Assembly: GCA_026706025.1 (NCBI GenBank)
Contig: JAPOZO010000020.1
Coordinates: forward strand, 1-64,000
DNA length: 64,000 nt
Source: Candidatus Poribacteria bacterium
GTDB lineage: Bacteria; Poribacteria; WGA-4E; WGA-3G
Direction of reading: 5' to 3'
The notes below the pieces were generated by a model. It searched no databases. It was not told the origin of the DNA and was given only the letters and a program-made list of their open reading frames with translations. The translations under genes were made by a program, and so were the position numbers. Numbering within the stretch: position 1 is the stretch's first letter; the number at the start of each line of letters is the position of its first letter. Shown here one piece after another: positions 6,583 to 26,357 of this stretch.

Positions 6583-8475
6583 ATGAATCCCAGTATGTTT
6601 GTCACCATTATCGGCAGTGTTGTTGCGCTGATCGTTATTTTTCTGTTAGTCTATCGTTCGTTCTATAAAAAGGCACCCGCGGATGCGGCGTTAGTCATCT
6701 CTGGTGGACGCAAAAAACGCGTCGTCTTTGGTGGGACCCTTATTAACCCAATTACCAACACGCACCAACTCATTTCCTTAAATACGCTCCAGTTACCTGT
6801 TGAACGTACAGGACAAGGCGCGCTGATTACAAAAGACAGTTTACGGGTTGATATAGAGGCGCAATTCTATGTCAAGATTGAACCAAACGAACAAGATGTC
6901 CTCAAAGCTGTCGCAAGTCTCGGTGATAAAACCCTAACCCCGGAAGCAGTTAATAAACTCCTTGAAGGGAAACTTGTCGGGGTCCTACGAAGTGTCGCTG
7001 CAACTATGGCCCTCCAAGAACTGCACGAAAAACGCCAAGAATTTTCTGACCAAGTTCAGGAAGCCTGTCGCGATGATCTTGAGCAAAACGGCTTTAAATT
7101 AGAAAGCGTTGCTGTCACGAATCTTGACCAGACCCCGCTTGATGCGCTTGACGAGAATAACCGTTTTGATGTTGTGGCAATTCAGACGATCAAGCAAGAG
7201 GTTGAAGATAAGCAGACGCAAACGGCTCGGATTGAGCACGAAAACAAGGTGAAGCGTGAAGAGGATCGTCTCAAAGCCGAACTTGAGATTAAGCAGCGCG
7301 AGGAGGAGACGGAAACGGAAGGGTTAGAGGTTGAGAGACGGCTTGAGTTTGCACAAGAAGAGCAACGGAAAGCCATCGCTACGAACAAGGCAGAACAGGA
7401 ACGCGAGGTTGAAGCGCACAAACTTGAGCAACAGCAGGCTGTTGAAGAAGCGCGCATCAAACAGGAAGAGGCGGTCAAGTCCTCGGAGATTATGCAGAAG
7501 CAGCGGTTAGAGACCGCTCGGATTGAACAGGAACGCCAAGTCGAAGAGACAGAAATTGCACAAAAGCAGGCAATCGAAATTGCACGTGTGCAACAAGAAC
7601 AAACGGTTCAAGAAGCAGAAATCGAGCGTAATCTTTCTGTCGAAACTGCCAAGATTGAGCAGGAACGCGCTGTAGAGGAAACAAGCATCGCGAGTAGAAT
7701 CGTTCTCGTTGAGAAAGATCGCGAGGAAAAAGAGGCGCAGGCCGAAAACGCAGTCCAGGTTTCAATCAAAGAGAAGGAACGTGAGGCGGCACTCACTGAA
7801 CTCTTGGAGGTGAGTGCACAAAAGGCGAGAGCCGAAGCAGCTGTTTCAACAGCCGAAGCTATTGAGGAAGCGGAACGTCAAAGCAAAATCGAACTGATCC
7901 GTGCGGAGCAAGAAGCCGATGAGGAACGGATTGCCAAAGAACGCAATGCGGATGCAGAGGCATACGCTGTTATAGAAGCCGCCAAGGCAGCCCTTGAAGC
8001 CGCTGAACTTGAGGCGCAGGCACAGAGAATTCTTGCAGAGGCACTGCTCGTTGAAGCGAAAGCGAAGGCTGATGGTGAAGAGGCCTCTATTGCTGCGAAG
8101 AATCAGGCGGATTCAAAAGTTCTCGTGAGTGATGCTATATTGGCACTCGTGGAATCACTCCCTGAGGTGACAGGCGAATTGATGAAACCCGCAGAACGCA
8201 TTGAAAGCATCCGGGTACTTGACCTCGGAAACGGCAATGGTGGCGGCGGTATGAACCGGGTTCTCAGTTCGATTGTCAACGCTGGGGCAGCCGTGCCCTT
8301 GCTCAAGGAGATTGTTGGATTCAGCGGTTTAGACACCGAAAAGATTGCCCGGACTGTTCGGGATTACGCTTCCGGATTGGCGGTGGATGCGCAAGTCAGT
8401 TCAGATGGTTCACCTGATGCCGGATTGGCGGTGGATGCGCAAGTCAGTTCAGATGATTCACCTGATGCCGATTAA
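6583..8475 (+). CDS. flotillin-like protein (YqiK type)
   Basis: 630 residues. An N-terminal membrane helix (about 6-26) is followed by a SPFH/flotillin domain (about 30-200, e.g. ADAALVISGGRKKRVVFGG, ISLNTLQLPVERT). A very long Glu/Ala/Arg/Lys-rich coiled coil (about 205-500) leads to a small C-terminal domain with glycine-rich GNGNGGGGMNRV. Flotillins oligomerise at the inner membrane and organise membrane domains. A start at ATG 6583 is supported by AAGGAG just upstream. The coiled coil is made of imperfect repeats (QERxVEExxIxQKQ). The last 32 residues are a tandem duplication. Confidence 0.9.
   Translation: MNPSMFVTIIGSVVALIVIFLLVYRSFYKKAPADAALVISGGRKKRVVFGGTLINPITNTHQLISLNTLQLPVERTGQGALITKDSLRVDIEAQFYVKIEPNEQDVLKAVASLGDKTLTPEAVNKLLEGKLVGVLRSVAATMALQELHEKRQEFSDQVQEACRDDLEQNGFKLESVAVTNLDQTPLDALDENNRFDVVAIQTIKQEVEDKQTQTARIEHENKVKREEDRLKAELEIKQREEETETEGLEVERRLEFAQEEQRKAIATNKAEQEREVEAHKLEQQQAVEEARIKQEEAVKSSEIMQKQRLETARIEQERQVEETEIAQKQAIEIARVQQEQTVQEAEIERNLSVETAKIEQERAVEETSIASRIVLVEKDREEKEAQAENAVQVSIKEKEREAALTELLEVSAQKARAEAAVSTAEAIEEAERQSKIELIRAEQEADEERIAKERNADAEAYAVIEAAKAALEAAELEAQAQRILAEALLVEAKAKADGEEASIAAKNQADSKVLVSDAILALVESLPEVTGELMKPAERIESIRVLDLGNGNGGGGMNRVLSSIVNAGAAVPLLKEIVGFSGLDTEKIARTVRDYASGLAVDAQVSSDGSPDAGLAVDAQVSSDDSPDAD
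8374..8469 (+). repeat. 48-bp tandem duplication at the flotillin C-terminus
   Basis: Two nearly identical 48-bp units (8374-8421, 8422-8469), differing at one base, encode GLAVDAQVSSDGSPDA and then GLAVDAQVSSDDSPDA. Confidence 0.9.
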
Positions 8476-8497
8476 TTGACATTTTTTGTGAAGGTGA

Positions 8498-8524
8498 GTA
8501 GGGGTTGGGTTACCCAACCCCTAC
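8498..8524. repeat. GTAG...CTAC palindrome / likely terminator
   Basis: Perfect 13-bp inverted repeat GTAGGGGTTGGGT / ACCCAACCCCTAC around a single T. It lies 22 bp past the flotillin stop, so it can form a terminator-like hairpin. It also belongs to a palindrome family found at several other places in the window. Confidence 0.75.
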
Positions 8525-8609
8525 ATCCCCACCTTCTCTTTTGAATAGATACTGGCGGGGGCACCAAGCGACGGTGCCTTAAACGCTGGGCGTATGAAAG
8601 GATGCACAA

Positions 8610-23911: not shown

Positions 23912-25087
23912 CTACTCCCGACACCGCCAGCTTGACGAGGCACCACACGTCTCAGGCTTACCACCGCTACAGAGTTGCCACGATTGACCGCAGGCAGGAC
24001 GCATACACGTCCGAACGCGGTGGCGATTCACCAACGAACTGTTATTTGAATTATAAGGCGCATTACACGTTGAACAGGTCGCCGTATTGCTCGATGGCGG
24101 CGTGCTACCACCTGAACTGCCACCGTTGTTACTGGGTGGCGTGCTACCTGTCGAACTGCTACTCGACGGCGAACAACAGCAGTGGTTATGACCACAGATG
24201 GGACCCGGAACCCCTGAAGTCGAACCCTCCGAACATGAGCCTTGATCGTCGCAATAGTCATAGGTCTCGTTGTTCGCACACCCCGATGATGAACCGCTAT
24301 TTGACGTGCAGCTCCCCGGATGCCCTGAGCAGGCATAAACATTTGAGGCGTTACAACTCGAACACGTCGCCAGCAATGCATGACTCGCGGGAACACCGTA
24401 ACAATTCCAATACGACCCGCCTGCATTGCAGTTTGAATTCGGACACGTCACATGATGTGCTGTCGGTGATGAGACACCTGTCCGCTTGCAGAAACTACAG
24501 ACGTTCGTCTTTGCCACCGTCCAACTCCCAGAAGTCGATGTGGTATGTGTGTATGCGGGATCCGAGGTGTCATTATGAACCACCCACTGCCCTCCATCCC
24601 ATCTGGCGATTTTTCGCACTGCCTCTCCGCTGGCAGTCCAATCGTAAGTGCCAGAATCATCATCCCAAGCAGAAGCTTTCTCAACAGTGAACGAGAAGTC
24701 ATCGTTTTCTGCACTATCCGAAAGGGGGAGCCCACCCACTACCGCCATGTAGCCGATTGTCTCTGTGGGTGCTTCGCCATATTGAGCATTTGTCAGATGA
24801 TTGCTGCCATTAATTGTGATCGCTGTGATTCTAAAATCAATCCACCCTAGTCCCCTCGCGGCTCCTGAAATCGTCATCTCAACAGGGTCCGGATGCGACG
24901 GCACGGTTGTCCCCGTTTCCCGAATATAGTAGGTATATGTGCCAGAGGCATTCGCCGAGATTGACGGGCCACTGTGAATGACCATATACGGATTGGGGTC
25001 CCCGATGCGCGGCAGACCCCAAACACACAGACCGACACCGAGACATAATAAAAACAGAATGCTGAGTAAAAGAACTTTTTTATTTAT
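23912..25087 (-). CDS. Cys-rich secreted protein with putative AUA start
   Basis: 391 codons if translation begins at ATA 25085-25087. That codon follows GGAGG by six bases and opens a textbook signal peptide (INKKVLLLSILFLLCLGVG). The first in-frame ATG, 34 codons later (24985), would omit the signal. The N-terminal half (about 40-180) is beta-rich and tolerant of Gly/Ser/Thr. The C-terminal half holds many cysteine knuckles (CSFCKR, CPNSNC, CSSCN, CSTCN, CMRPACG) and a Ser/Gly/Pro linker. The knuckles resemble serial zinc ribbons or disulfide modules. Function unknown; it lies 20 bp after the His-rich protein gene in the same operon. Confidence 0.6.
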   Translation of the reverse strand: MNKKVLLLSILFLLCLGVGLCVWGLPRIGDPNPYMVIHSGPSISANASGTYTYYIRETGTTVPSHPDPVEMTISGAARGLGWIDFRITAITINGSNHLTNAQYGEAPTETIGYMAVVGGLPLSDSAENDDFSFTVEKASAWDDDSGTYDWTASGEAVRKIARWDGGQWVVHNDTSDPAYTHTTSTSGSWTVAKTNVCSFCKRTGVSSPTAHHVTCPNSNCNAGGSYWNCYGVPASHALLATCSSCNASNVYACSGHPGSCTSNSGSSSGCANNETYDYCDDQGSCSEGSTSGVPGPICGHNHCCCSPSSSSSTGSTPPSNNGGSSGGSTPPSSNTATCSTCNAPYNSNNSSLVNRHRVRTCMRPACGQSWQLCSGGKPETCGASSSWRCRE

Positions 25088-25107
25088 GAGAAACCTCCAT
25101 AAAGGGT

Positions 25108-25917
25108 TTAATCTTCAAGCGGCAAAGGTCTGGGTCTGGGAACTTGTCCCCCAATATCATTACCGACCAGATGTCCAAGCCCTAATTCAACAAGGGCTTT
25201 TTCATGGGCTTCTTTCGTTCGTTGAGCCACTTTGCTTCGTGCTTTCTTCCCAGAAGCTGACGCTGTAATGAGCGGATATGGTCCTTGTGCCTCGTCTTGA
25301 ATCCGATACATTTTAGTACGGATTTGTTCCAGTTTGTTTGGATCGGTTGTACGAAGCCTTTGTGCCTTCAACTCCAAGTATCTTCTGGTTTGCTCGGGAT
25401 TGGGTGCGAATGCGGTAATCGTAAAGACTTGGATATAAGGTTCACCGATCTTGTTGATGACGGGTTGTCCGTTCTCATCGCGTTTGACGACCCACGCATC
25501 ATCCCAAATATATTCATAACCTCTTGGCGGTGGCGGAACACCGGCTTGTTCAAACCACGCCGACATTGCCCGTTTCGCCTCTGCGGGCGAGAATTGCGAC
25601 AGATATTTCTCAAGGAACGAACCCGGACGCGGTTTGAGTTCGCCAGCGTCCGCGGCATCCGATTCTGGCACGGGGGGCACTTCTGCCTCATGCGGTTCAG
25701 CATGCCAAGTGCCATCGGCGTGGAAGTGTCCGCCTTGCGAGGTGTCCCCTTCAGGCACTTCTGCGGTCGGTTGTTCGGTCGGTTTCTCTATGGGTTCAAC
25801 AGGCTTGTAAATCACAATCGGCTCTTTCGGTGGCTGTGTCGCGAGCAGGTAAAGCCCGACGGCACAGATCGCCACGATGAACACCGATAACGGTAGCCAA
25901 TATTTTCGTAAAAACAT
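25108..25917 (-). CDS. membrane-anchored protein with His-rich segment
   Basis: 269 residues. A single N-terminal membrane helix (about 6-27) is followed by a Pro/Glu-rich linker and a short His-rich box (about 62-77: GGHFHADGTWHAEPHE) that could bind metal. A conserved-looking globular part follows (EKYLSQFSPAEAKRAMSAWFEQAGVPPP, GYEYIWDDAWVVKRDENGQPV). It starts with ATG 25917 behind AAGGAG. Second gene of the sigma54-linked operon, 47 bp after the HMA lipoprotein. No named family recognised; topology implies an extracytoplasmic soluble domain. Confidence 0.65.
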   Translation of the reverse strand: MFLRKYWLPLSVFIVAICAVGLYLLATQPPKEPIVIYKPVEPIEKPTEQPTAEVPEGDTSQGGHFHADGTWHAEPHEAEVPPVPESDAADAGELKPRPGSFLEKYLSQFSPAEAKRAMSAWFEQAGVPPPPRGYEYIWDDAWVVKRDENGQPVINKIGEPYIQVFTITAFAPNPEQTRRYLELKAQRLRTTDPNKLEQIRTKMYRIQDEAQGPYPLITASASGKKARSKVAQRTKEAHEKALVELGLGHLVGNDIGGQVPRPRPLPLED

Positions 25918-25964
25918 GTTTTCACTCCTTGAGTTTCACACCGGTACACGTCTGCATCGGGTTC

Positions 25965-26249
25965 TTATTTGACGACTTCCGCACCAAACCCTGCATCTGC
26001 TAACGCAGTGATTAGCACCGAGCTTTTGATTTGACTCTTGACAACGACCGTTCTATCCCGGAGAGAGACCGAGACGATCTCCAATTCACCATCAACTTGA
26101 CCGAGTGCAGACCGCACTTTTGCTGCACACCCGCCTTAGTCCATGCCAGCCACTGCCAACTTGATTTCCTCTGTCTGCTGACCACAACCGATGAAGAACA
26201 CAACAACGGTGAGTAACAACACAACAGACGAGAAACGGATAACAGACAT
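25965..26249 (-). pseudogene. HMA-domain lipoprotein with in-frame UAA at the first metal-binding Cys position
   Basis: 95-codon frame interrupted once. ATG 26249 follows AAGGAG by eight bases. A lipoprotein signal (VVVFFIGCGQQ) leads into an HMA fold: IKLAVAGMD-stop-GGCAAKVRSALGQVDGELEIVSVSLRDRTVVV, ending LADAGFGAEVVK. HMA proteins bind Cu, Zn, Hg or similar through GMxCxxC. Here the first Cys codon is TAA (26136-26138) and everything after stays in frame and well conserved. One base separates TAA from TGA, the selenocysteine codon; two separate it from a Cys codon. A GTGCAG/CTGCAC stem lies ten bases past the stop. It may be a decayed selenoprotein, a simple nonsense mutation, a sequence error, or readthrough. 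I label it pseudogene because it cannot be fully translated by standard rules. Confidence 0.7.
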
Positions 26250-26357
26250 AAAAATCACTCCTTGTTATCCTTTATCAAAAGCTTCCGCGACTAAAACCCC
26301 GTCCTTGGTAGCACTATTGGTGTTCCTACGTGCTACAGTTGAGCTCACGTTTATAGT

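Follow-up and report, generated by a model that had tools for sequence, protein, structure and literature searches.

A gene on the reverse strand of the window (the whole stretch of 64,000 nucleotides analysed here, taken from contig C20 in a genome of 6.27 Mb) encodes a lipid-anchored HMA protein whose frame is broken by UAA exactly where its relatives carry the Sec codon UGA. The reading that we favour, at a probability of roughly three in four, is that a dispensable Sec-HMA lipoprotein gene recently suffered a nonsense mutation from UGA to UAA. The genome is that of Candidatus Poribacteria, a sponge-symbiont-type bacterium.

Translation of 26249-25965 on the reverse strand yields MSVIRFSSVVLLLTVVVFFIGCGQQTEEIKLAVAGMD, a stop, GGCAAKVRSALGQVDGELEIVSVSLRDRTVVVKSQIKSSVLITALADAGFGAEVVK and the terminal stop, and the TAA at 26138-26136 is the sole interruption of the 94-codon frame (Table 1). 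The first-pass annotation had described the frame as HMA-like on both sides of the UAA, with the stop in place of the first metal-binding Cys, and translation bears this out: the lipobox FIGC precedes the stop and, when the stop is read as Cys, the HMA domain PF00403 spans it (E 3e-10, 40.7 bits, cut-off 24.8). It had also correctly counted one base change from UAA to UGA and two from UAA to a Cys codon. At its own Sec position the window copy thus has TAA and not the UGA of a bacterial selenoprotein. The combination of stop, Cys and hairpin occurs once in the window and in none of 100 shuffles, and a chance origin of the pattern is excluded.

Table 1. Features of the interrupted gene and its neighbours (window positions), and broken copies of the same family in other genomes.
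Feature	Position	Strand	Basis or defect
HMA selenolipoprotein gene, 94 codons + stop, interrupted at codon 38	25965..26249	-	translation, profile match, alignment
Shine-Dalgarno-like AAGGAG before ATG	26258..26263	-	sequence
Lipobox F-I-G-C, lipidated Cys22; Cys22 invariant in alignment	26184..26195	-	translation, alignment
UAA stop, codon 38, GMD-stop-GGC; UGA (Sec) in all relatives	26136..26138	-	translation and homologue codons
Second metal-ligand Cys codon (TGT), GMDUxxC motif; invariant in relatives	26127..26129	-	alignment
Bacterial SECIS hairpin GUGC-GGUCU-GCAC, intact	26105..26117	-	alignment, shuffles, class-wide pattern
Partner gene, 269 aa: membrane anchor and His-rich GGHFHADGTWHAEPHE	25108..25917	-	ORF, locus comparison
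357-aa Cys/Ser-rich protein, further downstream	23912..24985	-	ORF
Broken copy	G002:C144		frameshift
Broken copy	G002:C411		extra stop and altered SECIS loop
Broken copies	G011:C63, G019:C60, G020:C92		5' end lost

Orthologues of the read-through protein, with 60-77% identity, are present in G002, G003, G011, G019, G020, G025 and G029, and wherever the equivalent of codon 38 is retained it is TGA (12 of 12 aligned orthologues). The copy at G002:C144 is identical to the window over the 31 nt after the stop, with TGA versus TAA the sole difference there. The last domain of a tandem HMA paralogue has Cys at the equivalent site (GMVCDAC), and because the orthologues have TGA and the tandem protein has this Cys equivalent, the position was Sec. 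Comparison of homologues had been proposed as a check on whether the residue is Cys or Sec elsewhere, and it returned in-frame UGA in every orthologue and Cys in one paralogous domain, the pattern expected of an ancestral selenoprotein. A class-wide search for stop, Cys and hairpin, in which TAA, TAG or TGA was allowed and one mismatch tolerated, recovered 25 stop-SECIS sites in 83 genomes, 24 with TGA and one, that of the window, with TAA; no second UAA in this layout was found in those 83 genomes. A scan of viral contigs gave no match to the stop-SECIS pattern.

The SECIS hairpin begins 18 nt 3' of the stop codon and has the conserved form GTGC-GGTCN-GCAC, with codons 45-48 reading GTG CGG TCN GCA in 13 of 13 aligned copies. 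The codons for V, R and A are degenerate and yet are fixed within the SECIS, whereas many degenerate codons nearby vary; by this synonymous-site invariance, the ancestral gene had a SECIS hairpin shortly 3' of its Sec codon. The window element has GGTCTGCAC in common with the SECIS of E. coli type whose sequence PMC3834832 gives. Covariation is uncountable because the stem never varies among the copies, and energy folding of single sequences did not always choose the conserved hairpin. With single-sequence folding, a check proposed in the first-pass annotation, ambiguous, the case for the SECIS rests on synonymous-site invariance and the known loop. The stem proposed there, GTGCAG/CTGCAC, does have its complement; as the SECIS, however, it is ruled out because its GTGCAG 5' arm varies among homologues, and the true element is GTGC-GGTCT-GCAC at 26117-26105.

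The complete set of Sec machinery genes is present, as would be expected of a genome that harboured the ancestral selenoprotein: the proposed search for selA, selB, selC and selD found all four, with selB on contig C84 adjoining the gene for a single, normal tRNA-Sec (anticodon TCA in the DNA), selA on C89, and selD with an in-frame TGA of its own. The genome looks rich in selenoproteins. Sixteen other Sec-like sites were found (7 HMA, 7 AhpC-TSA, 1 CMD and 1 selD), all of them TGA, with neither TAA nor TAG among the sixteen. Two adjacent AhpC-TSA peroxiredoxin-like matches lie at G000:C63:293682-294503, each with an in-frame TGA. Model RF00005 located 42 tRNA places, and among the tRNAs found (anticodons by ARAGORN; genome about 96% complete) there was no UUA anticodon and hence no tRNA-Sec of the type that UAA-to-Sec recoding would call for. 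UAA is the commonest stop in the window, where it terminates 21 of 45 large ORFs, and it also ends the EF-Tu gene of the genome. A selB-profile match on C40 "with 1 TAA", considered as a second recoded gene, proved to be this EF-Tu with its normal terminal UAA.

The genome keeps other Sec-HMA proteins, three on C30 and one on C10. At locus L172, about 7350-8576 (about 77350-78575 of G000:C30, forward strand), one open frame encodes five tandem HMA domains, with UGA at the metal site in four and Cys (GMVCDAC) in one, and with a separate TGCAGGATGCA hairpin after each UGA. In G032 and G006, relatives have versions of this tandem protein with three Sec and one Cys. A 2026 review gives a maximum of two to three Sec per prokaryotic selenoprotein family (PMC13188914). 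At L171:1847-3508 (G000:C10, forward strand) a 553-aa protein combines an N-terminal cytochrome-like CxxCH and WD40-like repeats with a terminal Sec-HMA domain (GMTUGAC), and frames with TGA that resemble it recur across the genus and order.

The partner gene starts 47 nt past the terminal stop of the HMA gene. Its product has no Pfam match, and its N-terminal part is kept beside most Sec-HMA copies; when the window gene was compared with those at L018, L020, L022, L024, L058, L060, L062 and L065-L067, the membrane anchor and a His-rich GHxHADGTWHAEPH segment were conserved and the C-terminal part differed. The block as far as the 357-aa gene is partly syntenic with the copy at G002:C371 (window 24466-26144).

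The Sec-HMA lipoproteins form a multicopy, accessory family: 8 of the 38 genomes of the genus have the subfamily, with one to seven copies in each, and no fewer than five copies besides that of the window are broken (Table 1). The same turnover would have claimed the window copy as well. At L024 (G011:C63), stretches that match window 25688-26136 and 24984-25473 abut; they meet at the Sec codon, and it looks as if a tandem duplication broke exactly at that point. In a branch test of the whole gene, omega on the window branch was 0.22 and neutrality was rejected (2dlnL 13.9). We do not read this value as ongoing selection, as a split test, a branch codon model of 13 copies, puts the signal mainly before the stop: there omega was 0.08, a tight constraint, with neutrality rejected, and after the stop it was 0.42 against a background of 0.28, with neither background nor neutrality rejected. 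These values are consistent with a mutation that arose late on the branch, and tell us hardly anything else.

Of the options left by the first-pass annotation, a decayed selenoprotein is the best supported, given UGA in all relatives and the presence of the SECIS and the sel genes. The ancestor would have been a selenoprotein with a lipid anchor, one HMA domain and Sec as first metal ligand (GMD-U-G-G-C), in which a single G-to-A transition in this strain would have turned the Sec codon UGA into UAA. Release factors, and not tRNA-Sec(UCA), would be expected to read this codon, so that translation would stop after 37 residues and the only product would be a short lipopeptide that lacks the metal site; by analogy, the UAA probably terminates here as it does in E. 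coli. The mutation being recent on its branch, the SECIS, the frame, the ribosome-binding site and the partner gene would still be intact. We take the UAA allele to be real, and loss of the gene is probably tolerated, since the family is an accessory one with multiple copies and the genome retains further Sec-HMA proteins. Two observations sit less comfortably with a nonsense mutation: the gene, SECIS included, is otherwise undamaged, and the post-stop omega of 0.42 is indistinct from the background. A random nonsense mutation would land on the Sec codon in about 1 of 28 cases by count, or in 9% if transitions are weighted, and this coincidence mildly favours readings in which UAA is special at this site; a nonsense mutation falling exactly there is unusual, not remarkable.

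The main rival is an error in the consensus or assembly, or a minority strain variant carried into the consensus, with UGA as the true codon and the gene intact. The assembly consists of 103 contigs and is put at 96.4% complete and 5.0% contaminated, the close relatives in the collection (those named are Candidatus Poribacteria) are metagenome assemblies, the gene is undamaged elsewhere, and a single C-to-T change on the forward strand would be enough. However, at any given base a single-base consensus error is rare, UGA stands at all 16 further Sec-like sites, true decay is seen in other copies of the family, and the rise in omega from 0.08 before to 0.42 after the stop is a non-significant hint of a non-coding period. 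We therefore consider an error unlikely, if clearly the most serious competitor to a genuine nonsense allele.

Reading of the UAA as Sec, whether by SECIS-directed misreading with SelB and tRNA-Sec(UCA) or through an unassembled tRNA-Sec(UUA), would be a genetic-code exception, with two stop codons for Sec in one bacterium. The intact SECIS and the position of the stop exactly at the Sec codon speak for such recoding, and UAA and UAG have been reviewed as recoded to Sec in some species where the tRNA-Sec anticodon is complementary (PMC10778597). Here, however, the sole tRNA-Sec has anticodon UCA, no UUA was found among the tRNAs, every other Sec site seen in the genome is UGA and no further UAA turned up in the 83 genomes. 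With UAA at the Sec position, E. coli made nothing but truncated protein, as mass spectrometry showed; activity was no higher when a SECIS and extra selA, selB and selC were supplied, and UAA with a SECIS and tRNA-Sec(UCA) likewise gave truncation alone (PMC3834832). This evidence speaks against translation of the UAA, and the recoding raised in the first-pass annotation is improbable. Less credible still is separate expression of the two halves, with a lipopeptide (MSVIRF...GMD) from the first and, restarted at the GTG at 26117, an HMA remnant of 50 residues from the second: a mechanical ORF does run from 26117 to 25965, but its GTG serves as the 5' arm of the SECIS and is present in all the UGA relatives, and the remnant would have neither of the two metal ligands and no signal peptide.

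If the nonsense allele is genuine, the UGA-to-UAA change has left a readable selenoprotein fossil, with SECIS and frame intact, which annotation pipelines would show as a mere short ORF. The locus also brings to light, in Candidatus Poribacteria, a family of Sec-HMA lipoproteins whose copies are born and lost and which scores below the cut-offs set for existing Sec-HMA families.

Sec-containing HMA and mercuric-transport-type proteins have been grouped under a "metal-binding protein" entry (PMC13188914). NF041115 (UxxU_metal_bind) and NF045683 (MerT_CopZ_Se) share with the window family the HMA fold and Sec in a metal-ligand motif, but the profile matches are weak (E 1e-8 and 1e-5) and the window protein, at 35.1 of 95 bits and 24.8 of 375, is a member of neither; its family consists of single-domain lipoproteins with one Sec in GMDUxGC, replaced by UAA in the window copy. 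The SECIS resembles that of E. coli fdhF in its GGUCU loop, its GCAC 3' arm and its place close 3' of the Sec codon, and differs in lying, at its 18-nt distance, within the V-R-S-A-L codons of the HMA domain. A non-UGA codon before a SECIS is also found in natural recoding by variant tRNA-Sec (PMC10778597), but those species have the matching anticodon, in contrast to the UCA that alone was found here. The CopZ/MerP metallochaperones (NF047957, the best NCBIfam match at 49 bits, and TIGR02052) have the same HMA domain and GMxCxxC geometry; the window protein lies below their cut-offs (85 and 92.55), and its family, unlike them, is lipid-anchored and has Sec for the first Cys.
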